From Pantoea vagans (GTDB lineage: Bacteria; Pseudomonadota; Gammaproteobacteria; Enterobacterales; Enterobacteriaceae): a DNA stretch of 64,000 bases. Positions 7,831 through 23,551 of this stretch are shown piece after piece. Where the stretch lies: assembly GCF_004792415.1 (NCBI RefSeq), contig NZ_CP038853.1:3286001-3350000 (forward strand), given 5' to 3'. The position numbers and the translations under genes are program-made. The first letter of the stretch is position 1. Each line of letters begins with the position of its first letter. Below the pieces are notes generated by a model that made no database searches, had not been told where the DNA came from, and saw only the letters and a list, made by a program, of their open reading frames with translations.

Positions 7831-8178
7831 ATGAAGCAAAGTATCAGGATCCTGCTGCTGACGGGACTCCTTGGCTTCTCCTCCACCAGTTTTGCCCTGA
7901 GCGAATCCGAAGCGGAAGATCTGGCCGATCTTACGGCGGTTTTTGTCTATCTGAAAAATGATTGTGGCTATCAGGATTTACCGGACGCACAGATTCGCAA
8001 AGCGCTGGTCTTTTTTGCTCAGCAGAACCGCTGGGATTTAAGCAACTACAGCAACTACAACATGAAAGCGCTGGGTGAAGACAGCTATCGCGATCTCAGC
8101 GGCATCGCCATCACCAACGACAAAAAGTGCAAGTCACTGGCCCGCGATTCACTGAGCCTGCTGGCCTACGTCAGGTAA
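7831..8178 (+). CDS. yacC: YacC family secreted protein (pilotin-like)
   Basis: This 115-residue protein has the same length as E. coli YacC and nearly the same C-terminal half (MKALGEDSYRDLSGI, ARDSLSLLAYV). An N-terminal signal sequence (MKQSIRILLLTGLLGFSSTSFA) predicts export, and two cysteines in the mature part could form a disulfide. YacC resembles the pilotins that guide secretins, but its function in this context is not established. I chose the ATG at 7831 because GAAGAG sits at the right distance. The order cueO, yacC, speE, speD is as in E. coli. Confidence 0.9.
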   Translation: MKQSIRILLLTGLLGFSSTSFALSESEAEDLADLTAVFVYLKNDCGYQDLPDAQIRKALVFFAQQNRWDLSNYSNYNMKALGEDSYRDLSGIAITNDKKCKSLARDSLSLLAYVR

Positions 8179-9172: not shown

Positions 9173-9982
9173 TTGCAAAAGCTAAAACTACATGGCTTCA
9201 ACAACCTGACGAAAAGCCTGAGTTTTTGTATTTACGATATCTGCTATGCGAATACTGAAGCTGAACGCGATGGTTATATCGCCTACATTGATGAACAATA
9301 TAACGCCAACCGTCTGACGGAAATCCTGACCGAAACCTGCTCCATTATTGGGGCTAACGTGCTTAATATTGCGCGCCAGGATTATGAACCGCAGGGGGCC
9401 AGCGTCACGATTCTGGTCAGCGAAGAGCCGATCGATCCCAAAGATATCGATAACTCCGAGCATCCTGGCCCGCTGCCCAATTCGGTGGTGGCGCATCTGG
9501 ATAAAAGCCATATCTGCGTGCATACCTATCCGGAAAGCCATCCTGAAGGCGGGCTCTGCACCTTCCGCGCGGACATTGAAGTCTCAACCTGCGGCGTGAT
9601 CTCACCGCTCAAGGCGCTGAACTACCTGATCCACCAGCTGGAGTCAGACATCGTTACCGTCGATTACCGGGTGCGCGGTTTTACCCGTGACGTGAAAGGG
9701 ATGAAGCACTTTATCGATCACGAGATCAATTCGATTCAGAACTTCATGTCTGACGATATGAAAGCGATGTATGACATGGTGGATGTGAATGTCTATCAGG
9801 AGAACATCTTCCATACCAAGATGTTGCTGAAAGAGTTCGACCTGAAACACTACCTGTTTAACACCCGCCCGGAAGATCTCAGCCCGCAGGAGCACAAGCG
9901 TATTACTGACCTGCTGTGGAAAGAGATGCGTGAAATCTACTACGGCAGAAATATCCCCTCAGTGGGCCTGAAGACCCTCTGA
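9173..9982 (+). CDS. speD: S-adenosylmethionine decarboxylase proenzyme
   Basis: SpeD decarboxylates S-adenosylmethionine using a pyruvoyl cofactor made by self-cleavage. The protein has 269 residues and is nearly identical to the E. coli form over most of its length. The cleavage site is Lys111-Ser112 in [15 protein letters not shown]. The start is a TTG (9173-9175), preceded by GAGGGGGTG, giving [19 protein letters not shown]. coli speD is also annotated with TTG. The C-terminus is a few residues longer than in E. coli. In E. coli yacL follows; here a large insert begins. Confidence 0.96.
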
Positions 9983-10156: not shown

Positions 10157-11449
10157 ATGGCAAGAATTAACATTATTGATTTCGCTGCCGTCCCGGACGC
10201 CACCTCACTTTCCACTCAGGCGATACAGCGCGCGATTGATAGCGCATCAGCAGGCGACACGGTGCTGATCCCGGCGGGCCGCTTTCTGACCGGTGCGCTG
10301 TTTCTGAAAAGTGAGATGACGCTGGAGCTGGCGAAAGATGCCGTGCTGCTCGGCAGCCAGCGGCTGGAGGACTACCCGGACATCGCTACGCGGGTGGCAG
10401 GGATTGATATGGTCTGGCCCGCGGCAATGCTTAACATCAATCACTGCCGCAACGTCACCGTCTGCGGCAGCGGCACGCTCGACGGACAGGGTGCCGTCTG
10501 GTGGAATAAATTCTGGGGCGACGACGAGAACAGCGGGATGCTGGCGGACTATACCCGTCGCGGCCTGCGCTGGGTGGTGGATTACGACTGCAAACGTCCA
10601 CGTAACGTGGTGGTTTACGAGAGCGAATGCGTGACGCTGGAGGACTTTACTTCACAGGATTCCGGCTTCTGGAACCTGCACGTCTGCTATTCGAAACAGG
10701 TGAATCTGCAGAGGCTACGTGTCATGAACGACACCGGCCCCAGCACCGACGGCATTGATATTGATTCCAGCCAGTTAGTGCGTGTGGAGGGCTGTACGGT
10801 CTCCTGCAATGACGACAATATCTGCGTGAAATCGGGTCGCGGCGCGGAAGCACAGCAGCTCGGCAGAACCGCACGCGATATCATTATTCGCGACTGCACC
10901 CTGCTGAAAGGTTCGGGCATTACCCTTGGCAGCGAAACCTCTGGCGGTATCGAAAATGTCATCATCGAACATAACCGCTTCTCTGGAACCGGCGTCGGCT
11001 TTCGCATCAAGTCAGCCCGGAATCGCGGCGGCTGGATCAAAAACATCGTGGTTCGCCATCTGAAGATGGAGGATGTCTGTTATCCGTTTATGCTGCAGCT
11101 GAACTGGTTCCCGCAGTACAGCTACAGCGAGCAGCCCGCCGACACCGAACAGCCTTCGCACTGGCGTAAGCTGGCGTCAGGCGTCACAGGTGATGCTGGC
11201 CTGACGCGGGTTGAGAATATCAGTATCAGTCATATCAGCAGCAGCCTGACTGAGCCTGCGGTGTTTTCCCGCGCCTTTTTTATTGAAGGCACGCCGGAAA
11301 ATCCGATTGAACGGCTGAGTTTCAGCGACATCACGCTGCAGGCGCAGGAGTTTGGCAAAATAGCGGGCGTAACGAATCTGAGGTTTGAGCGGATTACGGT
11401 AGACGCGCCGGCAATGACGCGCGAAGAGCATGACGCCTACGCGCGTTAA
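10157..11449 (+). CDS. Glycoside hydrolase family 28 (polygalacturonase-like), cytoplasmic
   Basis: This 430-residue protein has the right-handed beta-helix pattern of GH28. The catalytic Asp motifs are present: STDGIDIDSS for the usual NTD, then CNDDNICVKSG, and the substrate-binding FRIKSARNRGG. The usual GHG histidine is not seen; the aligned stretch reads KGSGITLGSE. There is no signal peptide, so it probably acts on imported oligosaccharides. Possible activities include exo-polygalacturonase, rhamnogalacturonan hydrolase or another GH28 specificity. It opens the accessory island after speD and is convergent with the DeoR regulator. Confidence 0.82.
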   Translation: MARINIIDFAAVPDATSLSTQAIQRAIDSASAGDTVLIPAGRFLTGALFLKSEMTLELAKDAVLLGSQRLEDYPDIATRVAGIDMVWPAAMLNINHCRNVTVCGSGTLDGQGAVWWNKFWGDDENSGMLADYTRRGLRWVVDYDCKRPRNVVVYESECVTLEDFTSQDSGFWNLHVCYSKQVNLQRLRVMNDTGPSTDGIDIDSSQLVRVEGCTVSCNDDNICVKSGRGAEAQQLGRTARDIIIRDCTLLKGSGITLGSETSGGIENVIIEHNRFSGTGVGFRIKSARNRGGWIKNIVVRHLKMEDVCYPFMLQLNWFPQYSYSEQPADTEQPSHWRKLASGVTGDAGLTRVENISISHISSSLTEPAVFSRAFFIEGTPENPIERLSFSDITLQAQEFGKIAGVTNLRFERITVDAPAMTREEHDAYAR

Positions 11450-11467
11450 CGGCGACTGCAGAAGATA

Positions 11468-11525
11468 AACGCGCGGTGCTGCTCTCACCCTGCTTTACGA
11501 TAAGGTCAGAGAAGCACGGCGCGTT
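11468..11525. repeat. Long inverted repeat between convergent GH28 and DeoR genes
   Basis: A 13-base arm beginning AACGCGC (11468-11480) pairs with the arm ending GGCGCGTT (11513-11525) with one mismatch, around a 32-base loop. It fills the short gap between two convergent stop codons. It probably acts as a two-way transcription end signal, though no T-run is present. Confidence 0.45.
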
Positions 11526-11529
11526 CAGT

Positions 11530-12294
11530 TCAGGCAGAGGTCAGCGCCAGCGTAATACCGCGCTCGCGCAGCGTGCGGCAGACATCCTCGTCTAACCGGC
11601 TGTCGGTCACTACATCGGTCAGATCATCCACCGGTGACGCGCAGAACAGCGACCAGGAGCCATATTTACTGCTGTCCGCCAGCAGAACCCGGCGCGCCGC
11701 ATTAGCCAGCAGGTCATGTTTCAGCCCCGCTTTCTCTTCAGTCGGCGTGGTAATGCCGCGCTCAAGGCTCCAGGAGTTACAGCTGACAAACGCGATATCG
11801 GGATTGATGCTGCGCAGCAACCGCCGTCCATGTTCACCCACACAGGACTGACTGGAGTCGTCGATCCGGCCGCCAATTATCGTCACTTCGATCTGCTTGA
11901 ACTCAGACAGAAACAGCGCAATGTGCAGGTCGGCAGTAATGACACGCAGCGGCAGATGCGTGAGCTGTCGCGCCAGCTCCAGCATGGTGGTTCCTGCATC
12001 CAGCACCACCGCATCGCCCGCCCGGACAAAGCTGGCGGCGCACTCGGCGATCGCCTGCTTCTCGGCCAGGTTCCGCTGCATTTTCTCCAGCGTGGTCGGC
12101 TGCGCAGGAATAAAACGATTCAGGGTAACGCCGCCATGACTGCGGCTGATCACGCCCTCTTTATCCAGCTTAATTAAATCACGTCGAATCGTGGCGGGTG
12201 AGGCGGAAATCGCACTGACCAGTTGCTCAACAGTCACCAGATTATGGCTTTTCAGGTAATCCATAATCTGGTCAAGACGGCTCTGTCCCTTCAT
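11530..12294 (-). CDS. DeoR-family transcriptional regulator
   Basis: This 254-residue regulator has an N-terminal winged helix-turn-helix (about residues 5-57: [21 protein letters not shown] and [20 protein letters not shown]). The C-terminal DeoR sugar-phosphate sensing domain has the typical [16 protein letters not shown] and [11 protein letters not shown] segments. Such proteins usually repress sugar or sugar-acid genes until a phosphorylated intermediate binds. It is the last gene of the kinase-PdxA2-regulator set (six bases after pdxA2), so it is likely autoregulated. It probably controls the divergent promoters near 14.6 kb. Confidence 0.9.
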
Positions 12295-12300
12295 ATTTCC

Positions 12301-13281
12301 CTATGCGAGCTGCATCGCGAGTTTAATCGAGATCGCCATGCTGTCAGACTTCGCTTTACCTGTCCAGGCGATATCAAATGCCGTGCCGTGGTCAGCAGAG
12401 GTGCGGATAAACGGCAGACCTGCGGTAATGTTCACGCCATCATAGAAGCCCAGCAGTTTAAGCGGGATGTGCCCCTGATCGTGGTACATCGCCACCACCA
12501 TGTCATAGCGTCCATCCTGGCACTGCAGGAACACCGTGTCCGGCGGGCAAGGCCCGGAGACATCAATCCCCTGCGCTTTCATCGCCTCAATCGCCGGGGC
12601 AACGGTGGTGATCTCCTCATCGCCAAACAGCCCGTTTTCACCGGCATGCGGATTGACGCCCGCCACGGCGATACGCGGGGCGCTGTAACCCACACGACGC
12701 AGGAAGGTGTCCGCCATACCAATCACGGTTTTGATGCGTGTCTGATTGAGCGTGTCGAGGAACTTACGCAGTGCAATGTGCGTCGTGACATGAATCACTT
12801 TCAGCTTATCGGTGTAGAGCACCATGGCGTAATCTTTGGTGTCAGTCAGGTGCGCCAGCAGTTCGGTATGACCCGGATAGAGATGGCCCGCCGCATGCAT
12901 CGCCTCTTTATTCAGCGGCGCGGTGGCTATGGCATGCACCTCACCGGCCAGTGCCAGCTCAGTGGCACGCTTCACGCAGCGCCACGCCAGATCCCCGGCC
13001 TCTTTCTGTACCACGCCAGGTTTCAGCGCGTCGGGATCGGCCAGCGGCTCATCGATCACATTGATAATGCCGGGCGCAAACCGTGCATCCTGTACCCGAT
13101 CCAGCACCCGCAGCTCGGCCTGGGGTGTGATGTTCATCGCCATAATGCGGCGCAGCGTACTGGCACAGCCAATCACCACGGCAGGGATGCCGTTCAGCTC
13201 ACCTTCAGAGAGCGCTTTGATGATGATTTCCGGGCTGATGCCCGCCGGATCGCCCATGGTGATCGCAATAATTTTACTCAC
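12301..13281 (-). CDS. PdxA2-like 4-phospho acid-sugar dehydrogenase (decarboxylating)
   Basis: This 326-residue protein resembles PdxA, with TMGDPAGISPE at the start, metal-ligand histidines in VIHVTTHIAL, NPHAGENG, and MYHDQGHIPLK. Beside a four-carbon acid-sugar kinase, such paralogues oxidise and decarboxylate D-threonate or D-erythronate 4-phosphate to dihydroxyacetone phosphate rather than making pyridoxine. I prefer the GTG at 13279-13281, because GAGGAGA stands six bases upstream of it. It overlaps the kinase end by eight bases, so translation is coupled. An ATG at 13305 would add eight atypical residues. Confidence 0.88.
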   Translation of the reverse strand: MSKIIAITMGDPAGISPEIIIKALSEGELNGIPAVVIGCASTLRRIMAMNITPQAELRVLDRVQDARFAPGIINVIDEPLADPDALKPGVVQKEAGDLAWRCVKRATELALAGEVHAIATAPLNKEAMHAAGHLYPGHTELLAHLTDTKDYAMVLYTDKLKVIHVTTHIALRKFLDTLNQTRIKTVIGMADTFLRRVGYSAPRIAVAGVNPHAGENGLFGDEEITTVAPAIEAMKAQGIDVSGPCPPDTVFLQCQDGRYDMVVAMYHDQGHIPLKLLGFYDGVNITAGLPFIRTSADHGTAFDIAWTGKAKSDSMAISIKLAMQLA

Positions 13282-14533
13282 TCGACTTCTCCTCAATAAA
13301 ACCAATGGCTGCTACCAGGGTATTTTCATCACCAAAGCCACCCGCTTTGGTCATCACCGGCAGAGTAAATTCACTGTTAAGCAGAACCCCGTGCGGCACA
13401 CAGCCCGCCACCAGACCCTGAATTTTAAAGCCGCTGGCCCCCAGCGCCTGAGCAACGGCTATCGCCACGTCGCCGCCCGACAGATAGAGCGCATGCGGCA
13501 GCTGTGCCTGGCACAGACTCAGCGTCATTTCGCCCAGCAGCTGACAGATCGCCTCGCCCAGCTGCTGGCGCGTCACGCGGTGCTGCTGGCAGAGATCCTC
13601 GATCGCGTGTCGCTGCGATGCATGCTGGCAGGTGCGGATCACCGTATGGCGACCGGCGCGCAGTGCGGCAGCTGCCTGTTCAATCCAGCGCTCCCGGCCA
13701 CGCCAGGCGGGCTGCTGAAACAGCTGACGAATATCAACATCCACGATCTCAACCGCGTGCTGGTTAAGCAGCGTGGCGATCTGCTGCTCTGCCTGACGAC
13801 TCATCGATCCCACCACCGCCAGCACGGGCCGCGACGGGCGAACAGAGAGCGCAGCGCCCAGCGCATCGCTTAATCCGGCGGCCCCGACCAGCAGAGGCTT
13901 CTCTGCCAGCCGCGCCGCAGCGGTAATGAGTCGCGCCAGGTCGGCCTCCGTTTCGGCATCTACCACCACCACGCCCTGCGCAGCCGCCAGCACGGCATCC
14001 AGCCGATCGCTGCGCAGCGTGGCGAGATCGATCTCTGAGCCCTCGATCTGCATCTGATCGAGAATGCAGGCGCTGAGGATCGGGGTTTTGGGATCGCTGG
14101 CAAATTCGGTGTCGTTCAGTAAACGCTGATTAACCCACACGTTACCGTCACGTGTGGTGCGGCCCAGTCGCGGTACGGCTGGTGCCACCAGCGCCATTTT
14201 TTTGCTGCTGGCGCGCAGTGCCGCCACCGTTTCAGCACCGACGTTGCCGCGCAGCGTGGAGTCGATCTTTTTAAACAGCCAGCCCTGCTGAAGCTGTGCC
14301 GCGTAATGCTGTACCACCTGCGTGACGCGCTCTGCAGCCTGAGTAGCACTGACAGCACGGCTGTCGGTGCTGATTACCAGCACATCCGCCGCCTCGTCGG
14401 GCTGCGGCGCGGTGGTGCCGAACAGCACATGTACACGGGCACCGGCCTGTGCCAGTCCGCTACCGGCATCGTTGGCACCGGTAAAGTCATCGGCGATGAC
14501 CAGCACCGGGGTTTTCCATACTGATGAGCCCAT
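13274..14533 (-). CDS. Four-carbon acid sugar kinase (DUF1537, OtnK/DtnK-like)
   Basis: This 419-residue kinase has the N-terminal DUF1537 signature VLVIADDFTGANDAGSGLAQ and the C-terminal nucleotide-binding LYLSGGDVAIAVAQALGA. Family members phosphorylate D-threonate, L-threonate or D-erythronate at C4. The neighbouring pdxA2-like gene points to D-threonate or D-erythronate, because the L-threonate route usually uses OtnC/OtnI, absent here. The start at 14533 (MGSSVWKTPVLVIADDFTG) has an AGGAGTGAGG ribosome site; the in-frame ATG 15 codons upstream does not. The promoter lies in the shared divergent region. Confidence 0.9.
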   Translation of the reverse strand: MGSSVWKTPVLVIADDFTGANDAGSGLAQAGARVHVLFGTTAPQPDEAADVLVISTDSRAVSATQAAERVTQVVQHYAAQLQQGWLFKKIDSTLRGNVGAETVAALRASSKKMALVAPAVPRLGRTTRDGNVWVNQRLLNDTEFASDPKTPILSACILDQMQIEGSEIDLATLRSDRLDAVLAAAQGVVVVDAETEADLARLITAAARLAEKPLLVGAAGLSDALGAALSVRPSRPVLAVVGSMSRQAEQQIATLLNQHAVEIVDVDIRQLFQQPAWRGRERWIEQAAAALRAGRHTVIRTCQHASQRHAIEDLCQQHRVTRQQLGEAICQLLGEMTLSLCQAQLPHALYLSGGDVAIAVAQALGASGFKIQGLVAGCVPHGVLLNSEFTLPVMTKAGGFGDENTLVAAIGFIEEKSSE

Positions 14534-14564
14534 CCTCACTCCTGTCAGGCTATTGCCGCTGCAT

Positions 14565-14594
14565 TTGATTATATTCAATCATGATTGATTATAT
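14565..14594. promoter_or_regulatory. Candidate operator: palindrome flanked by direct repeats
   Basis: The 14-base perfect palindrome TCAATCATGATTGA (14575-14588) is flanked and overlapped by two exact copies of TTGATTATAT (14565-14574 and 14585-14594), offset by 20 bases, about two helical turns. It lies between the divergent kinase and alcohol dehydrogenase genes. It is the obvious candidate site for the island's DeoR-family regulator. Confidence 0.55.
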
Positions 14595-14670
14595 GTGAGC
14601 AAGTTCAAATTAATCGAAATCGATATGCCTTATAAAATTAGCCACAGAGAGTGACTGACATCGCATTGCG

Positions 14671-14696
14671 CTGAGCAAAATTAATCATCTGCTCAG
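14671..14696. promoter_or_regulatory. Inverted repeat upstream of iron alcohol dehydrogenase operon
   Basis: CTGAGCA (14671-14677) and TGCTCAG (14690-14696) form a perfect inverted repeat with a 12-base AT-rich spacer, ending 24 bases before the first gene of the rightward operon. It could be an operator or a leader hairpin. Confidence 0.45.
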
Positions 14697-14720
14697 TCAT
14701 GACAGAAAAAAGGGTATGAA

Positions 14721-15869
14721 ATGAACATTAACAGCACGGTGATTAGCGGTTATCAGGCGTTAAACGACATGCGCTATCTGCTGAGTGGCGTAACGACAGC
14801 GATAGTGGTGACTGACCGGAACATTGAAGCGATTCCGGCGGTTCAGGCGCTGATGGGGCAACTCCGGGATCAGATTCCGCGTATCAGTGTGGTCAACAGC
14901 GTGCCGCCCGAGCCGAGCCAGCATGATGTGGCCGCGATTACAGAAACGCTCTCACAGCGCCAGGCCGACATGGTGATTGGCATCGGCGGTGGCAGCGTGC
15001 TGGATGTGGCGAAGCTGCTCTCGGTGCTGTGCATCGACGGAGCACCGTCGCTGGACGCCCTGCTGGCAGGCGAGAAACCGCAGCGCCGCACCCGTTCAAT
15101 GCTCATCCCGACCACTGCCGGCACCGGTTCAGAAGCGACCCCGAATGCGATTCTGGCGATCCCGGAGAAAGAGACCAAAGTCGGCATTATTTCACCGGTG
15201 ATGCTGCCCGATGTGGTGGCGCTGGTGCCGGAACTCACCACCAGCATGCCGCCGCACATCGCCTCGTCTACCGGCATTGATGCCCTGTGTCACCTGATTG
15301 AGTGCTTCACCGCCAACGTGGCTAACCCGGTCAGCGACAACTATGCGCTGATTGGGATGAAGAAGCTGTTCGCGAATCTCGAAACCACGCTGCGCGAGCC
15401 GGAGAATCTGCAGGCACGGCTGAAGATGCTCTGGGCCTCTTATTATGGCGGCGCATCGATTGCCCATGCCGGGACGCATCTGGTGCATGCGATGTCCTAT
15501 CCGCTTGGCGGCAAATATCACCTGCCACACGGCGTTGCCAACGCCATTCTGCTGGCCCCCTGCATGCGCTTTGTCCGTCCGGCCGCGGTGAGCAAATTCG
15601 CTCAGGCCTATGACCTGCTGCCCGACGCCGACGTCCGTTTAAGCGATGAAGAGAAATCACACGCGCTGGTCGACTACTTCACCGCGCTGGTTGCGCGGCT
15701 GCAGTTGCCTGCCAGCCTGGAAGCACTGGGCATCGGCCCGGATCACCTGCCTTATTTAGTGGAAGCGGCACTCGACGTGCAGCGCCTGATGAAAAACGTG
15801 CCGATGGCGGTCACCGCCGACGATGTGCGCGCCGTCTATCTGACGCTGTTCCCTTCCTGCCAGGCGTAA
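14721..15869 (+). CDS. Iron-containing alcohol dehydrogenase
   Basis: This 382-residue group III dehydrogenase has the NAD-binding GIGGGSVLDVAKLL near residue 90 and PTTAGTGSEATPNAIL near 130-145. The metal ligands lie in STGIDALCHLIECF and in HAGTHLVHAMSYPLGGKYHLPHG. These enzymes interconvert alcohols and aldehydes or oxidise sugar-acid hydroxyls. It is first in a rightward operon and its TAA overlaps the first in-frame ATG of the next gene (TAATG). Being beside an aldolase, it may handle the aldehyde product or make the keto substrate. The family is certain; the substrate is unknown. Confidence 0.9.
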   Translation: MNINSTVISGYQALNDMRYLLSGVTTAIVVTDRNIEAIPAVQALMGQLRDQIPRISVVNSVPPEPSQHDVAAITETLSQRQADMVIGIGGGSVLDVAKLLSVLCIDGAPSLDALLAGEKPQRRTRSMLIPTTAGTGSEATPNAILAIPEKETKVGIISPVMLPDVVALVPELTTSMPPHIASSTGIDALCHLIECFTANVANPVSDNYALIGMKKLFANLETTLREPENLQARLKMLWASYYGGASIAHAGTHLVHAMSYPLGGKYHLPHGVANAILLAPCMRFVRPAAVSKFAQAYDLLPDADVRLSDEEKSHALVDYFTALVARLQLPASLEALGIGPDHLPYLVEAALDVQRLMKNVPMAVTADDVRAVYLTLFPSCQA

Positions 15870-15880
15870 TGAGGATTGTC

Positions 15881-16765
15881 ATGAACAAGAAAATCAACGG
15901 CGTACTGACCGCCATCGTCACCACCTTCGATCGTGAAGGTGCCTTTGATCCGGTGAGACAGCGTGAGCAGGTCAGACGCCAGATCAACGCCGGAAACGGC
16001 ATCTTCTGTGGCGGCACCAACGGTGAATTCTTTGTGCTGAATGAGCAGGAGAAGATTGCCGTCACCACCACCTGCGTCGATGAAGTCAACGGTCGGGCAC
16101 CTGTTGTGGCACACATCGGCGAGATTTCGACCCGTGAAACGATCCGGCTCGGCAAACAGATTGCCCGCCTGGGTGTGGATGCCGTCTCGGCGATCACCCC
16201 ATGGTTTGTGCCGCTGAAACAGCAGGAGCTGATCGACCACTATCAGCACGTAGCGGACGCGCTGACGGTGCCGCTGTTCCTCTACAACATTCCGGCGCGT
16301 ACCGGCAATACCCTGCAGCCAGAGACCGTTCGTACGCTGGCCGCGCACCCGAACATCATCGGCATTAAAGACTCCGCAGGCAGCTATGAAAGTCTGAGCG
16401 GATTTCTGCAGGCCACCGCCGACTGTGAGGGCTTTGATGTGCTGAACGGCCCTGACTCGCTGATTCATCAGGGATTCGTTGATGGCTGCTCCGCTTCTAT
16501 TTCCGGGCTGGCAAACGTGGCACCGGAGGCGATTAACGCCATCTGGGCGCGCTTCAGTGCCGGTGACATTGCCGGTTCGCATCAGGCACAGGAGAACGTC
16601 ACCGGCCTGCGCACCGCGCTGTACAGCATCGGTTTCTCACCGGCCGCCGTGAAAAAAGCGGTCAGCCTGCAGGGCTTTGAGGTGGGTGAAAGCCGCTATG
16701 CGGTGCAGTTCAGCGCCGACGAACAGCAGCAGATCCGTCAAATCGTGAACCACTACCTGCAATAA
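15881..16765 (+). CDS. DapA-like aldolase (dihydrodipicolinate synthase family)
   Basis: This 294-residue class I aldolase has GGTNGE (44-49), Tyr135 in YNIPARTG and the Schiff-base Lys163 in GIKDSAG. It is not the housekeeping DapA: in sugar-acid operons, homologues cleave 2-keto-3-deoxy acids to pyruvate plus an aldehyde, or dehydrate and decarboxylate keto-deoxy acids. The ATG at 15881 has GAGG eight to ten bases before it. The earlier ATG at 15869 overlaps the previous stop and lacks spacing. The neighbours (dehydrogenases, symporter) fit sugar-acid breakdown. The exact reaction is inferred. Confidence 0.87.
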   Translation: MNKKINGVLTAIVTTFDREGAFDPVRQREQVRRQINAGNGIFCGGTNGEFFVLNEQEKIAVTTTCVDEVNGRAPVVAHIGEISTRETIRLGKQIARLGVDAVSAITPWFVPLKQQELIDHYQHVADALTVPLFLYNIPARTGNTLQPETVRTLAAHPNIIGIKDSAGSYESLSGFLQATADCEGFDVLNGPDSLIHQGFVDGCSASISGLANVAPEAINAIWARFSAGDIAGSHQAQENVTGLRTALYSIGFSPAAVKKAVSLQGFEVGESRYAVQFSADEQQQIRQIVNHYLQ

Positions 16766-16841
16766 CGTCCATCGCCTTTGTACCCTATCGGTCAGATGAG
16801 AACGAACCTGATGGTCGCCATCTGCCAGAACAATCGAGGTC

Positions 16842-18260
16842 ATGATGAAAGCATTTTCAACTGAGAGCACCTTACTGATCGTCGGCATGGTGGTCGCCTA
16901 TATCCTGTTCACCACCTGGCTGACCTGGCGGCTGCGCAGTAAAACCAGCGGCGACTTCATGGAAGGCTCGCGCGCCATGCCCGCCTTTATCGTCGGCATT
17001 ATGCTGATGTCGGAATATATCGGGGCAAAATCGACCATCGGTACCGCGCAGGCAGCCTTTGAGGATGGCTTCGCCGCCTCCTGGTCGGTGATTGGCGCGG
17101 CGATTGGGTTCCCGCTGTTTGGTCTGATTCTGGTCAAACGCATCTACAACACCGGAAAAATCACGATCTCCGGTGCCATCGCCGAGAAATATGGCAGCTC
17201 GACCAAGAACATTATCTCGCTGATTATGATCTATGCGCTGCTGCTGGTGAACGTCGGGAACTACATCAGCGGTGCGGCGGCGATCTCCACCGTGCTGAAG
17301 ATCGACCTGACGCAGGCGGCCTTTATCACCGCGGTGGTCAGTACCTTCTACTTTGCGTTTGGCGGCATGAAAGGCGTCGCCTGGGTTACGCTGCTGCACA
17401 GCGCCATCAAGTACATCGGGATTCTGATTATTCTCTATGTGGCGCTGAAAATGACCGGCGGCGTGGCCCCGATGATCGAGAAAATGCCGGCGTTCTATTG
17501 GACGTGGGATGGTCACGTCGGTGCCAGTACCATTGTCGCCTGGCTGATCGGGACTGTGGGATCGATCTTCTGTACGCAGTTTGTGATCCAGGCGATCTCC
17601 TCCACCAAAGATGTGAAGTCAGCGAAGCGTGCCACCTGGGTCGCCTTCATCTTCTGCCTGCCGATCGGTCTGGCAATGGCGCTGATTGGCGTGGCGGCGA
17701 AGTTTGCGCATCCCGATATCAAGAGCCTCTATGCGCTGCCAGTGTTTCTGCAGGATATGTCACCGTGGCTGGCAGGCATTGTCACCACCTCGCTGGTGGC
17801 CTCGATTTTCGTCAGCGTCGGCACCGTTGCGCTGGCCATCGCCTCGCTGGTCGTCAAAGATTTTTACGTGCCCTATCGTAACCCGACGCCGGAGCGCGAA
17901 TTTAAAGTGACGCGCTGGATCTCGATTGGCATCGGCTTCTTCCCGCTGCTGTTTGTCCTGTTCTTCCCGGAAGTGCTGAAGCTCTCGTTCTTTACCCGCG
18001 CGATTCGCCTGTCGATCACCGTGGTGGCGATCATGGCATTCTATCTGCCATGGTTTAAGAGCACGCGCGGTGCCAACGCCGGTCTGATTGGTGCCTGCGT
18101 GGTGACGTCCGTCTGGTTCCTGATGGGTAACCCGTTCGGTATCGACAATATGTATGTGGCGCTGATTACGCCGGCCATCATTATGGTGATTGACCGCTGT
18201 ATCCCGTCACGCCAGTCTCAGCCTCAACCGCAACACAATGCACAAAATAGTGGAGCCTAA
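16842..18260 (+). CDS. Sodium:solute symporter family transporter
   Basis: This 472-residue membrane protein has about 13 transmembrane segments. It opens with MKAFSTESTLLIVGMVVAYILF and shows the SSS pattern (SGDFMEGSRAMP, GAKSTIGTAQAAFEDG, GGMKGVAWV). Such carriers import sugar acids, sialic acid, glucose or carboxylates with sodium. Start at 16842 or 16845 (Met-Met), with GAGGT upstream. It is the only transporter of the island and is followed without a gap by the sialidase-like gene. The ligand is probably the island's substrate, but cannot be named. Confidence 0.9.
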   Translation: MMKAFSTESTLLIVGMVVAYILFTTWLTWRLRSKTSGDFMEGSRAMPAFIVGIMLMSEYIGAKSTIGTAQAAFEDGFAASWSVIGAAIGFPLFGLILVKRIYNTGKITISGAIAEKYGSSTKNIISLIMIYALLLVNVGNYISGAAAISTVLKIDLTQAAFITAVVSTFYFAFGGMKGVAWVTLLHSAIKYIGILIILYVALKMTGGVAPMIEKMPAFYWTWDGHVGASTIVAWLIGTVGSIFCTQFVIQAISSTKDVKSAKRATWVAFIFCLPIGLAMALIGVAAKFAHPDIKSLYALPVFLQDMSPWLAGIVTTSLVASIFVSVGTVALAIASLVVKDFYVPYRNPTPEREFKVTRWISIGIGFFPLLFVLFFPEVLKLSFFTRAIRLSITVVAIMAFYLPWFKSTRGANAGLIGACVVTSVWFLMGNPFGIDNMYVALITPAIIMVIDRCIPSRQSQPQPQHNAQNSGA

Positions 18261-18261
18261 T

Positions 18262-19458
18262 ATGACTCAGGAAACCGTCACCGCAGAACGCACCGGCCTG
18301 GTTGCGCCGCACCCGCAGGATAGCGCCCAGCAGATTGCGATGCTGCCCTCCTCCTGCCCGCAAAACCATGCGGCTAACCTGCTGCCGCTGCCCGATGGCG
18401 ATCTGCTTTGCGTCTGGTTTGGTGGCACGCAGGAAGGGATTGCCGATATCTCAGTCTGGTGTTCCCGGCTGACAAAAGGCAGCGATCGCTGGAGTGACGC
18501 GCAGAAGCTTTCTGACGATCCGGGTCGCTCAGAACAGAATCCGGTGCTGTTTCTCGATCCCGATCAGATACTGTGGCTGCTGTGGACGGCGCAGAAATCG
18601 GGCAATCAGGACACCGCGATTGTGCGCTATCGTCAGTCTCACGATTTCGGCAAGAGCTGGGGCGAGATCAAAACCCTGCTGGATAAGCCCGGCACCTTTA
18701 TTCGTCAGCCGATTGTCGTGCTGCCTAACGGCAACTGGTTACTGCCGGTGTTTTACTGCCTGACGCAGCCCGGCGAAAAGTGGGTCGGCAGCTATGACGT
18801 CAGCGCGGTAAAAATCTCAGAAGATAAAGGCCAGAGCTGGCGCGACGTCAGCGTGCCTGACAGCACCGGCTGCGTTCACATGAACGTCACCCTGCTGGAT
18901 GATGGCTCGCTGCTGGCGCTTTACCGCAGTCGCTGGGCCGACCACATTTACCAGAGTCGCTCGTTTGATCAGGGCGAAAGCTGGAGCGCGCCCGAACCGC
19001 TGTCGCTGCCCAACAATAACTCCTCCATTCAGGTCACGACGCTGCGCAACGGTCATCTGGCGCTGGTGTTCAATGCGATGAGCGCCGAAGGGGCCAGCGA
19101 GCGCCGGTTGTCGCTGTATGACGAAATTGAAGATGATGAAGAGGACAGTGACGTTGCGGTTGCCGCCGAACCGGTGGTGCACAGCGGGCGCACCGCCTTC
19201 TGGGGCGCGCCACGAGCGCCAATGACGCTGGCGATCTCAACGGATGGCGGCAAAAGCTGGCCGCTGCAGCGCAATCTGGACGAAGGCGACGGCTACTGCA
19301 TGACCAATAACTCTCAGCAGAAGTTAAACCGGGAGTTCTCTTATCCCAGCATCAAGCAGGGTGTGAACGGCGAACTGCATATCGCCTACACCTGGTATCG
19401 CCAGGCGATCAAGTATGTGCGGGTCGGGGAGTCCTGGGTGCAGGGAGGTGACGCGTGA
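18262..19458 (+). CDS. Sialidase-like Asp-box (BNR) protein
   Basis: This 398-residue protein has a predicted six-bladed beta-propeller of the sialidase superfamily. Four Asp-boxes of the form S-x-D-x-G-x-(S/T)-W are visible: SHDFGKSW, SEDKGQSW, SFDQGESW and STDGGKSW. The segments FIRQPIVVLPNG and HMNVTLLDDGSLLALYRSR fit the core. No signal peptide is seen, so it is probably cytoplasmic. An acidic low-complexity loop (DEIEDDEEDSD, about residues 287-297) interrupts the propeller. The ATG at 18262 directly follows the transporter stop and has GGAG upstream. Its true substrate need not be sialic acid; no nan genes are present. Confidence 0.83.
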   Translation: MTQETVTAERTGLVAPHPQDSAQQIAMLPSSCPQNHAANLLPLPDGDLLCVWFGGTQEGIADISVWCSRLTKGSDRWSDAQKLSDDPGRSEQNPVLFLDPDQILWLLWTAQKSGNQDTAIVRYRQSHDFGKSWGEIKTLLDKPGTFIRQPIVVLPNGNWLLPVFYCLTQPGEKWVGSYDVSAVKISEDKGQSWRDVSVPDSTGCVHMNVTLLDDGSLLALYRSRWADHIYQSRSFDQGESWSAPEPLSLPNNNSSIQVTTLRNGHLALVFNAMSAEGASERRLSLYDEIEDDEEDSDVAVAAEPVVHSGRTAFWGAPRAPMTLAISTDGGKSWPLQRNLDEGDGYCMTNNSQQKLNREFSYPSIKQGVNGELHIAYTWYRQAIKYVRVGESWVQGGDA

Positions 19459-20138
19459 TTGAAAAGATGGCGCTGGTGACCGGCGCCAGCTCCGGCATCG
19501 GCCAGGCGATTGTGGACCGCCTGCTGAATGAAGGCTGGCAGGTGACTGGCCTGAGCCGATCGGCTATAAACCGGGCAGACACGGGCTGGCAGAGCCATCA
19601 GATCGATATCAGCGACAGTGCGGCATTGCAGGCTTTACTGGACAAACTGCCGGTGCCGCAGGCGGTGATCCATGCAGCGGGAATGATGCAGGCCGCGCCG
19701 CTCGGGGAGCTGGATCTGAACGCCAGCACACGCCTGTGGCAACTGCATGTTGCCGCCGCAGAACAGCTGGCGAATCATTTTGCGCCCCGGATGAGCGCGG
19801 GCGGCAGAATCGTGCTGCTGGGTAGTCGCACGTCAGGCGGTGCGTCGGGCCGCAGTCAGTATGTGGCCACCAAATCGGCGATGATCGGCATGGTGCGCAG
19901 CTGGGCGGCAGAGCTGGCACCGCGCGGCATTACAGCCAATATCGTGGCGCCAGGTGCCACCGAAACGCCGATGCTGCAACAGCCGGGCCGGGCCAGTTCC
20001 CCGCCGCGCTTGCCACCGATAGGCCGCTATATTCAGCCGCAGGAAGTCGCCGGACTGGTCGGGTTCCTGCTTTCGCCTGCAGCCGCGGCAATCACCGGTC
20101 AGCAGCTGGTGATGTGCGGCGGTGCGTCGCTGAGTTAA
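19455..20138 (+). CDS. Short-chain dehydrogenase/reductase
   Basis: This 227-residue SDR has the nucleotide-binding TGASSGIG (9-16), HAAG (73-76) and the YxxxK pair Tyr136/Lys140 with Ser124 nearby. The serine spacing is one residue shorter than the classical 13. The start is a GTG (19455-19457) overlapping the TGA of the preceding gene and preceded by GGGAGGTG; the ATG at 19467 is a poorer choice. It closes the rightward operon and could oxidise the island's sugar or sugar acid to a keto or lactone form. Confidence 0.88.
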   Translation: MIEKMALVTGASSGIGQAIVDRLLNEGWQVTGLSRSAINRADTGWQSHQIDISDSAALQALLDKLPVPQAVIHAAGMMQAAPLGELDLNASTRLWQLHVAAAEQLANHFAPRMSAGGRIVLLGSRTSGGASGRSQYVATKSAMIGMVRSWAAELAPRGITANIVAPGATETPMLQQPGRASSPPRLPPIGRYIQPQEVAGLVGFLLSPAAAAITGQQLVMCGGASLS

Positions 20139-20186: not shown

Positions 20187-20564
20187 TTACCGTACGGGTT
20201 TACCGTACTGGTTCACAAACTGGCGATAGGCGGCGATCACCAGCTGAAAATCTTCAATGCCGCAGAAGGAGAGGCTCTCTTCGTCGTAGTAGTTCATCCC
20301 CTCTTCCATTCCGTCATCTTCCAGTGCCAGCAGATTGGCGCGAATCATTACCTCTTCCTCATCCAGCAGGATGGTGTACTCGCTGCCGATGCGCTGCCAC
20401 TGACGCACGCTGCCTTTGACGTCTTCGATTGCGGCTTCCACTTCATCCAGCAATCCCGGATCGTTTTTCACCTCTTCGTTGAACCAGTGGCCGACCGCTT
20501 CATGATCCATCGACATACGAACCTTAATCTGTCCGGTCACATCGCGTAAAAATTCATATTCCAT
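20187..20564 (-). CDS. yacL: YacL family protein (UPF0231)
   Basis: This 125-residue acidic cytoplasmic protein matches E. coli YacL closely, beginning [19 protein letters not shown] and containing GHWFNEEVK and [20 protein letters not shown]. The role of this family is unknown. It is a few residues longer at the C-terminus than the E. coli protein. It lies between the accessory island and acnB, keeping the backbone order. Confidence 0.92.
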
Positions 20565-20753: not shown

Positions 20754-23351
20754 TCAGACCGCGGTCTGGAAAATCACGCCGTCAGCTTTATCGGTGTACT
20801 GCGCCAGCTGGTCGAAGTTGAGATAGCGATAAGTGTCGCTGGCCGTTTTATCGACCTGCGCCATAAATTGCTGATACTCATCCGGCGTTGGCAGACGGCC
20901 TAACAGTGAAGCCACTGCCGCCAGCTCTGCAGATGCCAGGTAGACGTTAGCGCCGGTACCCAGACGGTTCGGGAAGTTACGGGTCGAGGTAGAAACCACC
21001 GTCGAACCATCAGCCACACGTGCCTGGTTACCCATACAGAGTGAACAGCCCGGGATCTCGATACGCGCACCGCTTTTACCGAATACGCTGTAGTAGCCCT
21101 CTTCGGTCAGCTGTGCCGCATCCATCTTGGTTGGCGGAGCCACCCACAGACGGGTTGGCAGCTGGCCTTTGTGGCTATCCAGCAGTTTACCGGCGGCACG
21201 GAAGTGACCAATGTTGGTCATGCAGGAGCCGATAAACACTTCGTCGATCTTCTCGCCCTGAACATCAGAGAGCAAACGGGCATCGTCCGGATCGTTTGGC
21301 GCACAGAGGATCGGCTCTTTAATGTCAGCCAGATCGATTTCGATCACGGCGGCATATTCAGCATCCGCATCCGGCTCAAGCAACTGAGGATCGGCCAGCC
21401 ATTTCTCCATGCTTTCAACGCGACGCTCCAGCGTACGACGATCGCCGTAGCCTTCTGCGATCATCCACTTCAGCAGCACGATGTTGGAGTTCAGGTATTC
21501 GATAATCGGCGCTTTATCCAGCTTGATGGTACAGCCCGCAGCGGAACGCTCGGCTGACGCATCGGACAGCTCAAACGCCTGCTCGACTTTCAGATCCGGC
21601 AGACCTTCAATCTCAAGGATGCGGCCAGAGAAGATGTTTTTCTTACCTTTCTTCTCAACGGTCAGCAGACCCTGTTTGATGGCATACAGCGGAATGGCGT
21701 GAACCAGATCGCGCAGGGTAATACCTGGCTCCATCTTACCTTTGAAGCGCACCAGCACTGATTCCGGCATGTCGAGCGGCATGACGCCCGTCGCCGCAGC
21801 AAATGCCACCAGGCCTGAGCCCGCCGGGAAAGAGATGCCGATAGGGAAACGGGTATGCGAGTCACCACCGGTGCCCACGGTATCCGGCAGCAGCATACGG
21901 TTCAGCCAGCTGTGGATAATGCCGTCGCCCGGACGCAGTGAGACACCGCCACGGTTCATGATGAAGTCTGGCAGCGTATGGTGCGTGTTCACATCCACCG
22001 GCTTAGGGTACGCAGCGGTGTGACAGAAGGACTGCATCACCAGATCGGTCGAGAAGCCCAGGCAAGCCAGATCTTTCAGCTCGTCACGGGTCATCGGACC
22101 GGTCGTATCCTGCGAGCCAACTGAGGTCATCTTCGGTTCGCAATAGGCACCCGGACGAATACCGGCGACGCCACAGGCACGGCCAACCATTTTCTGTGCC
22201 AGTGAGAAACCACGGGTGCTCTCCGCGACATCTTTCGCCTGACGGAACACGGTGCTGTGCGGCAGACCCAGCGATTCGCGCGCTTTAGTGGTCAGGCCGC
22301 GACCGATGATCAGCGGAATACGGCCACCGGCGCGGACTTCGTCAATCAGCACTTCGGTTTTGAGTTCGAAGCTGGCCAGAAGGTCGTTGGTTTCGTGGTT
22401 ACGGACTTCGCCTTTGAACGGATAGATGTCGATGACATCGCCCATGTTCAGGTCATTGACGTCCACTTCAATCGGCAGTGCGCCCGCATCTTCCATGGTG
22501 TTGAAGAAGATAGGTGCAATTTTGCTGCCCAGCACCACGCCGCCACCTTTTTTATTCGGCACGTTCGGGATGTCGTCGCCCATAAACCACAGCACCGAGT
22601 TGGTGGCGGATTTGCGTGACGAACCGGTTCCGACAACGTCACCGACATACGCCAGCGGGAAGCCTTTGGTCTTCAGTGCTTCAATCTGTTTGATCGGGCC
22701 GATATTGCCCGGCTCATCCGGCTCAATACCTTCACGGGCATTTTTCAGCATCGCCAGGGCGTGCAGAGGAATGTCAGGACGAGACCAGGCATCCGGGGCC
22801 GGAGAGAGGTCATCGGTGTTGGTTTCGCCAGTAACTTTGAACACCGTAACGGTGATCTTCTCAGCCAGCTCAGGTCGTGACAGATACCACTCCGCATCGG
22901 CCCAGGATTGCATCACCTGCTTCGCGTATTCATTACCCGCTTTCGCTTTTTCTTCGACATCATAGAAGTTGTCGAACATCAGCAGCGTGTGTGAAAGGGC
23001 TTTCGCCGCGATGGGTGCCAGTTTGCTATCGTCCAGCGCTTCAATCAGCGGATGAATATTGTAACCGCCCTGCATGGTGCCGAGCAGTTCAACCGCTTTT
23101 TCAGGAGATATCAGAGGAGAGGTTGCTTCGCCTTTGGCGACAGCCGCCAGGAAACCGGCTTTGACATACGCCGCTTCATCGACGCCAGGTGGGACTCGGT
23201 TGACCAATAAATCGGTCAGAAATTCTTCTTCACCCGCAGGTGGATTTTTCAGCAGTTCAACCAGCGCGGCCATCTGGGAAGCCTCTAAAGGCTTAGGTAC
23301 AATTCCCTGGGCAGCACGCTCGGCAACGTGCTTACGGTATTCTTCTAGCAC
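20754..23351 (-). CDS. acnB: Aconitate hydratase B
   Basis: AcnB is the main TCA-cycle aconitase, interconverting citrate and isocitrate with a [4Fe-4S] cluster. The protein is 865 residues, the same as E. coli, when started at the GTG complementary to 23349-23351 (reading [16 protein letters not shown]), which has GAGG upstream. An upstream in-frame ATG at 23414 would add 21 unrelated residues. Cluster cysteines are visible in SCMTN and [12 protein letters not shown] near the C-terminus. The N-terminal HEAT-like domain of AcnB is present. A terminator follows. Confidence 0.97.
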
Positions 23352-23551
23352 GACGTTATCCTCGCTCTCATTATGTAGGGCTTTCCGACCACCTTGCTCA
23401 CTTATGGAGAACACACTTCCCTTTCTCGTCCAGGTTGAGGTGCCCGGTTTCGCGGAGGGCAGAATAGCAGGATTTCGTCTGTTTGTTAATCTGTTTACAA
23501 AAATACAACATAATCCACTGCGCCCGTTCTGCCCGCTTATACTCCCACATC

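Follow-up and report, generated by a model that had tools for sequence, protein, structure and literature searches.

When examining a 64-kb stretch of the Pantoea vagans genome (hereinafter, the window), we identified an island of nine genes that probably encodes a pathway for the utilization of Dha (3-deoxy-D-lyxo-hept-2-ulosaric acid), a constituent of side chain D of rhamnogalacturonan II (RG-II). It is highly probable that the two divergent arms of the island constitute a single linear pathway that runs through D-threonate, and it is likely that the substrate is a C7 ulosaric acid; for Dha itself, we estimate the probability at roughly 0.55-0.6. The nine genes separate speD (AdoMet decarboxylase, 9173-9982; all coordinates are positions in the window) from a UPF0231 gene (20187-20564), which we take to be a member of the yacL family and after which comes acnB (20754-23414). 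An earlier note on this DNA had described nine genes between speD and yacL, arranged as a leftward set and a rightward operon with a common regulatory gap; the gene coordinates and protein families bear out this layout, and the gap is 187 bp long. Proteins were named with Pfam and NCBIfam profiles under the curated NCBIfam cut-offs; among the matches listed (for the short-chain dehydrogenase, the best 25 of 213), only DtnK and PdxA2 exceed such cut-offs. The features of the island are as follows.

10157-11449, + strand: GH28 family protein, exo-galacturonidase-like (Pfam Glyco_hydro_28, 1.5e-28)
11530-12294, - strand: DeoR-family regulator (Pfam DeoRC, 5e-47)
12301-~13281, - strand: PdxA2, D-threonate 4-phosphate dehydrogenase (NCBIfam NF002891; presumed GTG start)
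13274-14533, - strand: DtnK, DUF1537 D-threonate kinase (NCBIfam NF047819)
14534-14720, no strand: divergent promoter gap common to both arms, 187 bp (sequence, half-sites, palindrome)
14566-14581, no strand: candidate DeoR operator TGATTATATTCAATCA (palindrome; more half-sites at 14582-14589 and 14680-14687)
14591-14612, no strand: CRP-like site ATATGTGAGCAAGTTCAAATTA (TGTGA-N6-TCA[AC]A pattern)
14721-15869, + strand: Fe-containing alcohol dehydrogenase (Fe-ADH), proposed D-threuronate reductase (Pfam Fe-ADH)
15869-16765, + strand: DHDPS/NAL-family class I aldolase, proposed Dha aldolase (Pfam DHDPS, PF00701, 2.9e-62)
16842-18260, + strand: sodium:solute symporter (SSS), proposed importer (Pfam SSF, 8e-27)
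18262-19458, + strand: BNR_2/sialidase-fold 'Asp-box' protein (hereinafter, BNR), proposed Dha glycosidase (family BNR_2; cytoplasmic by inference)
19455-20138, + strand: classical short-chain dehydrogenase (SDR) (Pfam adh_short_C2)

From the gene set, the protein families, their co-occurrence across genomes, the candidate operator shared by the arms and the predicted fold of the BNR protein, we infer the following route, including all activities, substrates and the direction of the Fe-ADH reaction. The symporter would import a small Dha glycoside, from which the cytoplasmic sialidase-fold protein would free Dha, with the ring opened, in many relatives, by a YhcH/NanQ-type anomerase. The DapA-family aldolase would then split Dha into pyruvate and D-threuronate (4-oxo-D-threonate), a step that nearly reverses the reaction of DapA itself, and Fe-ADH would reduce D-threuronate to D-threonate using NADH. 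Finally, DtnK would phosphorylate D-threonate to D-threonate 4-phosphate, which PdxA2 would oxidatively decarboxylate to dihydroxyacetone phosphate (DHAP) and CO2, regaining the NADH spent by Fe-ADH, so that for Dha the redox balance closes. The choice of a C7 3-deoxy-hept-2-ulosaric acid as the aldolase substrate follows from the fact that cleavage of such an acid would leave the aldehyde at the very carbon that Fe-ADH would reduce, namely, C4 of D-threonate, which is a primary alcohol. The stereochemistry matches exactly: in our own Fischer projection, C5 and C6 of the D-lyxo compound become C3 and C2 of D-threonate, the hydroxyls at C4, C5 and C6 pointing left, left and right, and those of the cleavage product, with the carboxyl placed on top, pointing left at C2 and right at C3. 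We know of no natural 3-deoxy-heptulosaric acid other than Dha. In plants, according to the available part of PMC12168206, it is found only in RG-II. Of the scheme offered in the earlier note, sodium-coupled import, in this species, and aldol cleavage to pyruvate plus an aldehyde are supported as far as genomes can do so. The oxidation ascribed there to a dehydrogenase has to be reversed, given that Fe-ADH must reduce the aldehyde to an alcohol in order to yield D-threonate. DHAP would be reached as that note had it, but not by a separate four-carbon acid branch; the arm would instead take the second product of the aldolase.

Judged by sequence profiles with curated cut-offs, the kinase and dehydrogenase of the left arm can be confidently named as D-threonate enzymes: DtnK scores 530 bits against the equivalog cut-off of 450 for D-threonate kinase (NF047819), and PdxA2 scores 665.6 bits against 583 for D-threonate-4-phosphate dehydrogenase (NF002891). 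In the D-threonate pathway reportedly described by Zhang et al. in 2016, DtnK phosphorylates D-threonate and PdxA2 gives DHAP and CO2. The known route begins with the uptake of D-threonate, whereas in the island D-threonate is proposed to be formed inside the cell from the aldol product.

The gene set is conserved well beyond Pantoea. We compared 88 BNR loci, namely, 80 contig loci (the best 80 of 571 confirmed BNR relatives, with distant relatives barely sampled), seven annotated records and the window, with flanks of 10-12 kb, shorter at contig ends; this set counts one genome twice (L041 and L042) and includes the window itself. The four families that would act downstream of BNR (aldolase, Fe-ADH, DUF1537 kinase and PdxA; hereinafter, the core) are all found beside it in 60 of the 88 loci, three of them in two loci, two in another two (the short contigs L074 and L087) and none in 24. 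Thus, at least three core families adjoin BNR in 62 loci (core loci), in rearranged gene orders and in organisms that span Gamma-, Beta- and Alphaproteobacteria and Firmicutes (the Bacillus pumilus group and Lucifera). Aldolase, BNR, Fe-ADH, DUF1537 and PdxA are all annotated in E. coli E2348/69, Rhizobium leguminosarum, Agrobacterium fabrum, Sinorhizobium meliloti and Martelella, in records that differ in gene order and importers. The earlier note had proposed a search for the co-occurrence of all five rightward genes with the DUF1537 and PdxA2 genes; of the five, Fe-ADH, the aldolase and BNR do recur together with these two (60/88), but SSS and SDR vary. In 20 of the 24 loci that lack the core, the genome has the four genes together elsewhere: the window-type aldolase query, applied to 20 of the 24 genomes, gave 10 unlinked cores, and a Rhizobium-type query gave 10 further unlinked full cores, nine of these in Bradyrhizobium. 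No core was found for L045, a locus cut by the contig end, in a search with the Rhizobium-type query only, and L093 was left out of the genome search. BNR is distributed unevenly: it was found in 15 of 40 near relatives and, at E <= 1e-30, in 12 of 398 genomes of the phylum. The hosts are rich in plant-associated genera, namely, Pantoea, Erwinia, Pectobacterium, Dickeya, Rhizobium and Bradyrhizobium; the BNR protein of the nearest named locus, L021, is 98% identical to that of the window. Core loci without an adjacent BNR gene show a different, also recurrent partner: in 18 of the 19 that were fetched (L101-L107, L109, L110 and L115-L123, but not L108), the core has next to it a pair of ORFs that are ~316 and ~440 aa long. 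Five of each were scanned and proved to be D-2-hydroxyacid dehydrogenases and MFS permeases, respectively, the latter, where scored, being nearest to the D-galactonate transporter model TIGR00893, of the sugar-acid type. Four BNR loci carry this pair as well. Perhaps, and this is a guess, the module provides a second entry to the pathway, for a reduced C7 acid.

If the enzymes act in the linear order BNR, then aldolase and Fe-ADH, then DtnK and PdxA2, a nested pattern of gene presence is expected, and this is the pattern that we observed in one and the same set of 198 genomes of the family. With E-value limits of 1e-60 for BNR, 1e-70 for the aldolase, 1e-90 for Fe-ADH and 1e-120 for PdxA2, the four genes were detected in 21, 29, 30 and 49 genomes, respectively. 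Of the 21 genomes with BNR, all contain Fe-ADH, and the aldolase is present in 20 of them (Fisher P 1.5e-19 for BNR and the aldolase, a value that ignores shared ancestry); all 29 with the aldolase have Fe-ADH, and all 29 also have PdxA2 (a hand count; the chance of this within 49 of 198 is 5e-22, again ignoring shared ancestry). The aldolase match in G600 is partial. The only genome with BNR but without the aldolase is G470, which is 49% complete and has stops in Fe-ADH and PdxA2. G553 and G578 keep both PdxA2 and the aldolase/Fe-ADH pair, which lie far apart there. The upstream steps thus depend on the downstream ones, whereas the latter can occur alone, as expected for a linear pathway. PdxA2 without the aldolase is found in 20 of the 49 genomes, and in the 14 such loci that were fetched (L141-L154), the DUF1537 and DeoR genes are present too. 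The gene of 317-331 aa next to PdxA2 and DtnK in these loci encodes a KdgT-family permease in all five cases scanned, with no such ORF visible in L143; because of this permease, the sequences suggest that genomes with PdxA2 and DtnK only import D-threonate directly. As a separate observation, the island of G470 (L124, G470:C1:2740000-2758000) has decayed as a whole, with stops in several genes.

The two arms also appear to be under common control. We counted the half-site TGATTRAW/WTYAATCA in 41 orthologous divergent gaps and found, on average, 2.27 copies per gap, compared to 0.08 in composition-preserving shuffles; at least one half-site is present in 34 of these gaps and at least two in 28, and the CRP-like pattern TGTGA-N6-TCA[AC]A is present in 23. 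Seven genomes were scanned for the palindrome TGATTRAATTYAATCA, with one mismatch allowed and the reversed pattern as a control. Three Pantoea genomes (those behind L037, L040 and L044) contain exactly two operator sites each, one in the divergent gap of the core and the other upstream of an unlinked SSS-BNR-YhcH-SDR operon, with none in the reversed control; the site positions agree with L105-L107 and with L037/L040/L044. G429 and G431 each have one extra one-mismatch site away from both modules, and G428 has the core site only, plus one match in the reversed control. In the split Pantoea loci L026, L027, L028 and L029, there are 0, 0, 0 and 1 half-sites, respectively, before SSS; the gaps look similar by eye. 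The genome of the window has two sites, one located in the divergent gap and the other ahead of an MFS gene; none was found before its GH28 gene. Taken together, these patterns suggest that a DeoR-type repressor, probably along with CRP, controls both arms. The DeoR-family protein of the island, for which the nearest NCBIfam model is YgbI (178 bits, below the cut-off of 400), is the probable regulator. Separate regulation, which the earlier note had named as a result that would refute a joint pathway, was not seen: the gap that bears the operator is common to the arms, and the operator links the split parts in three genomes. The second site in the genome of the window is an exact copy (G000 C1:979067-979082, L138 ~8068-8083), ~160 bp upstream of the MFS gene (L138 6636-7910, - strand), which is a possible further member of the regulon. 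Of the extra sites in G429 and G431, the one in L139 has a TetR-type gene nearby.

The aldolase belongs to the class I DHDPS/NAL superfamily, and the Schiff-base lysine, Lys167, is present in 19 of 19 core aldolases. It scores below the NCBIfam cut-offs for dapA (177.8 vs 206.15 bits) and for N-acetylneuraminate lyase (151.6 vs 281 and 123.9 vs 382 bits), and another protein in the genome of the window matches PF00701 better (383 vs 210 bits). DapA joins pyruvate to aspartate semialdehyde, a C4 aldehyde-acid, and the Arg in its motif YN(V/I)P(S/A)RTG has a role in this enzyme. The corresponding Arg144 is kept in 17 of the 19 core aldolases; it is present also in another PF00701 family member of the window's genome, in a comparison that covers the members of this genome apart from the fourth, L114. 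For Fe-ADH, the second NCBIfam match is 4-hydroxybutyrate dehydrogenase (207 bits, below the cut-off of 500), the substrate pair of which is the pair proposed for Fe-ADH minus two hydroxyls.

The BNR protein (398 aa) models onto exo-sialidases and, in the predicted structure, has their propeller fold. Within the family, Tyr361 is invariant (40/40), and so are Arg222 and Arg318, which, as judged by eye from motifs, fit positions 2 and 3 of the carboxylate-binding arginines. A Dha hydrolase is known, namely, GH143 of Bacteroides (BT1020), which is described in the available part of PMC6811678 as a sialidase-like, five-fold enzyme with a Tyr-Glu pair that cuts chain-D Dha from galacturonate. The proposed Dha release and the sialidase-like propeller are common to both proteins, whereas BNR models onto exo-sialidases and has a His at the Glu position. 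GH143 is not among the 50 structure matches shown for the BNR model, which excludes nothing.

Several observations weigh against the assignment to Dha or against a uniform pathway. The BNR residue His206, invariant in 40 of 40 sequences, aligns with a Glu of NanC, NanB and 9eob that is presumably the sialidase catalytic Glu, so that the Tyr-Glu pair is missing, and position 1 of the carboxylate-binding arginines seems, by eye from motifs, to correspond to QNH36. Because of His206 and the apparent replacement of Arg1, the active site is not that of a standard GH33 enzyme. GH143 (BT1020, 5mqr) matches the BNR profile weakly (E 0.04 over 76 positions), and RG-II glycosidases are few in the neighbourhoods, with GH28 in 10 of the 88 loci and GH127 in one, that of A. 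fabrum. The SDR has no role in the proposed pathway, and the module of D-2-hydroxyacid dehydrogenase and MFS permease is not obviously explained by Dha. Among the 29 genomes with the aldolase, nine lack BNR, and all nine (L115-L123) have the pair of ~316-aa and ~440-aa ORFs after the aldolase, of the hydroxyacid-dehydrogenase and MFS types where scanned. No core was found for L073 (a lone aldolase match, L137) and L076 (none), and the Pantoea ananatis locus holds all five families except the kinase. Internal stops were flagged in nine of the 30 Fe-ADH matches and two of the 29 aldolase matches. Two Rhizobium-type core aldolases are only 23% identical to that of the window and lack Arg144, and the two alphaproteobacterial kinases scanned reach 135 and 96 bits against the D-threonate cut-off of 450. 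Furthermore, PdxA2 exceeds the general pdxA cut-off too (366.5 vs 290 bits).

The same linear logic could apply to a different C7 3-deoxy-ulosaric acid, such as the C4 epimer of Dha or a unit of a bacterial or algal glycan. The D-threonate assignment fixes two of the three stereocentres, C4 being lost on cleavage; the second entry module, with its 2-hydroxyacid dehydrogenase, suggests a further acid; and cores are found in Methylobacterium, Bacillus and Telmatospirillum besides plant and gut bacteria. Still, no other natural acid of this class comes to our mind and the hosts are rich in plant-associated genera, so we consider such a substrate unlikely. The sialidase fold, the DHDPS/NAL-family aldolase and the YhcH relatives would also suit a pathway for 3-deoxy-D-manno-octulosonic acid (Kdo), ketodeoxynononic acid (KDN) or sialic acid, in which BNR would act as a sialidase or Kdo hydrolase, the aldolase would resemble NanA or Kdo aldolase and the linkage of the D-threonate genes would be fortuitous. 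However, the products of these substrates, D-arabinose, mannose and N-acetylmannosamine (ManNAc), need neither DtnK nor PdxA2, and yet PdxA2 accompanies the aldolase in 29 of 29 genomes; moreover, the N-acetylneuraminate lyase models are far below cut-off, and the positions of the sialidase Glu and, probably, Arg1 are occupied by His, which makes this scenario improbable.

A division of the island into two unrelated functions, with D-threonate use on the left and a separate ulosonic-acid pathway on the right, would account for the 20 of 49 PdxA2 genomes, the decayed G470 among them, in which the D-threonate arm has no accompanying aldolase. Nevertheless, the aldolase occurs without PdxA2 in none of 29 genomes, the divergent gap and the operator are common to both arms, the operator stands before the unlinked right-arm module in three genomes, and both parts are kept where they are far apart (G553 and G578); we regard such a division as quite improbable. 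Least probable, in our assessment, is that the DUF1537-PdxA2 pair serves vitamin B6 salvage by making 4-phosphohydroxythreonine for pyridoxal phosphate. This is the printed interpretation of the E. coli copy, at least in the available part of PMC12928451, and PdxA2 does pass the general pdxA cut-off, but a B6 function explains neither the nested profile nor the regular presence of a sialidase, an aldolase, a reductase and an importer alongside the pair.

Several known systems resemble the proposed Dha pathway in part. The galactarate/glucarate pathway (GarL aldolase, GarR reductase and GarK kinase) likewise converts a 2-keto-3-deoxy diacid to pyruvate and a semialdehyde acid, followed by reduction and phosphorylation, whereas the route encoded in the island would start from a C7 rather than a C6 acid, employ other enzyme families and end with a decarboxylating dehydrogenase. 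Glucarate or galactarate itself was rejected as the substrate given that a C6 acid would give a C3 semialdehyde. Sialic acid (nan) catabolism shares the sialidase fold, an NAL/DHDPS-family aldolase and, in many relatives, a YhcH/NanQ-type protein; in contrast, the island aldolase is far below the lyase cut-offs, BNR has His at the position of the catalytic Glu, and the C4 acid arm replaces the ManNAc steps. The claim that no named pathway has this exact gene set needs a qualification, in that this set has been published for E. coli, although only as uncharacterized: the available part of PMC12928451 lists it as GR 6 (nagE-glnS), under 'Uncharacterized features', as uncharacterized sugar metabolism, mentions an S. 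meliloti cluster and, citing Thiaville et al. 2016, ties the DUF1537-PdxA2 pair to B6. GR 6 comprises the same genes as the island, except that SLC13, TerC and YhcH replace SSS and SDR. This cluster was matched in 1044 of 5426 E. coli genomes, in 1043 of these over at least 80% of its length; a record named EcN (the probiotic strain Nissle 1917) is one of the matches. Among the titles and abstracts listed, in part by capped searches and with subscription literature largely outside, the cutting of Dha by GH143 is covered, and neither the use of Dha as a carbon source nor a catabolic pathway for Dha or threuronate was found. On balance, we favor the view that with this island a catabolic route for Dha comes to light for the first time, one that is widespread, resembles a glucarate pathway for a C7 acid and relies on a sialidase-fold glycosidase that has His in place of the catalytic Glu. 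If this is the case, activities can be assigned to genes that are annotated only as sialidase family protein, dihydrodipicolinate synthase family protein and iron-containing alcohol dehydrogenase; the B6 interpretation of the E. coli copy would be corrected; intracellular D-threonate would gain a physiological source; and it would become clear why the set is present in many plant bacteria and in about one-fifth of the E. coli genomes searched.

The genes around this set vary. The importers of the cores are unrelated to one another, being SSS, SLC13 with TerC, or a family-5 (peptide/oligosaccharide-type) ABC system; the SLC13/CitMHS permease of the E. coli version is apt for a diacid, and TerC does not yet fit the proposed pathway. 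SDR tracks SSS, being present in 43 of 47 core loci with SSS and in two of 15 without it. Relatives of YhcH (YhcH/YjgK/YiaL family) were detected by tblastn in 40 of the 62 core loci, and annotated records name this family as well; none was detected in the island of the window. In the available part of PMC8141875, YhcH is an anomerase that supplies an aldolase with cyclic ulosonic acids in their open form and has no effect on one that is largely open. The GH28 protein was, along with the Asp-box (BNR) protein, one of the two candidates for substrate release in the earlier note, and only the latter gains support, as far as genomes can provide it. GH28 is accessory and outside the conserved set, being found in seven of the 62 core loci and three of the 24 no-core loci. 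Its best NCBIfam match is rhamnogalacturonidase BT4153 (182 bits, below the cut-off of 650), it matches the PDB entries 5olp and 3jur, and no signal peptide was seen in it by eye.

Other genes recur in the neighbourhoods. In the A. fabrum plasmid locus (L016 22869-24821), a GH127 gene and a sugar ABC importer lie ~6 kb from the core; GH127 includes beta-L-arabinofuranosidases, and side chain D of RG-II terminates in beta-L-arabinofuranosyl-Dha. An MR_MLE (enolase-superfamily) ORF, which the pathway leaves unexplained, is located near the BNR module in six loci (L076, L083, L089, L090, L091 and L095); several Bradyrhizobium loci have M20-family genes nearby, and L076 has an IclR gene. In L026 (6266-8320), a gene of the isocitrate/isopropylmalate-dehydrogenase family, which includes tartrate or malate dehydrogenases, and a divergent LysR gene lie just upstream of SSS-BNR-SDR, and the ORF cluster of this dehydrogenase recurs in L027 and L029, which also come from split Pantoea genomes.

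With respect to the chromosomal site, no Rfam family at the gathering score and no tRNA were found in the whole window, and a generic scan for promoters yielded 4 sites, no more than the 4.9 expected. A foreign origin of the island was considered on the basis of composition and set aside, the GC content being 56-63% in the 10-20 kb interval and 47-61% in the flanking kilobases. The same site is used elsewhere: the ORF clusters of the window's UPF0231, acnB and speD genes recur in 13, 11 and 10 of the 88 loci, respectively, and a speD-like ORF (as judged by its N-terminus) is close by in nine of the 14 loci L141-L154. Between the GH28 and DeoR genes, an imperfect 22-nt inverted repeat (86%) at 11468-11525 is, perhaps, the terminator of these convergent genes.

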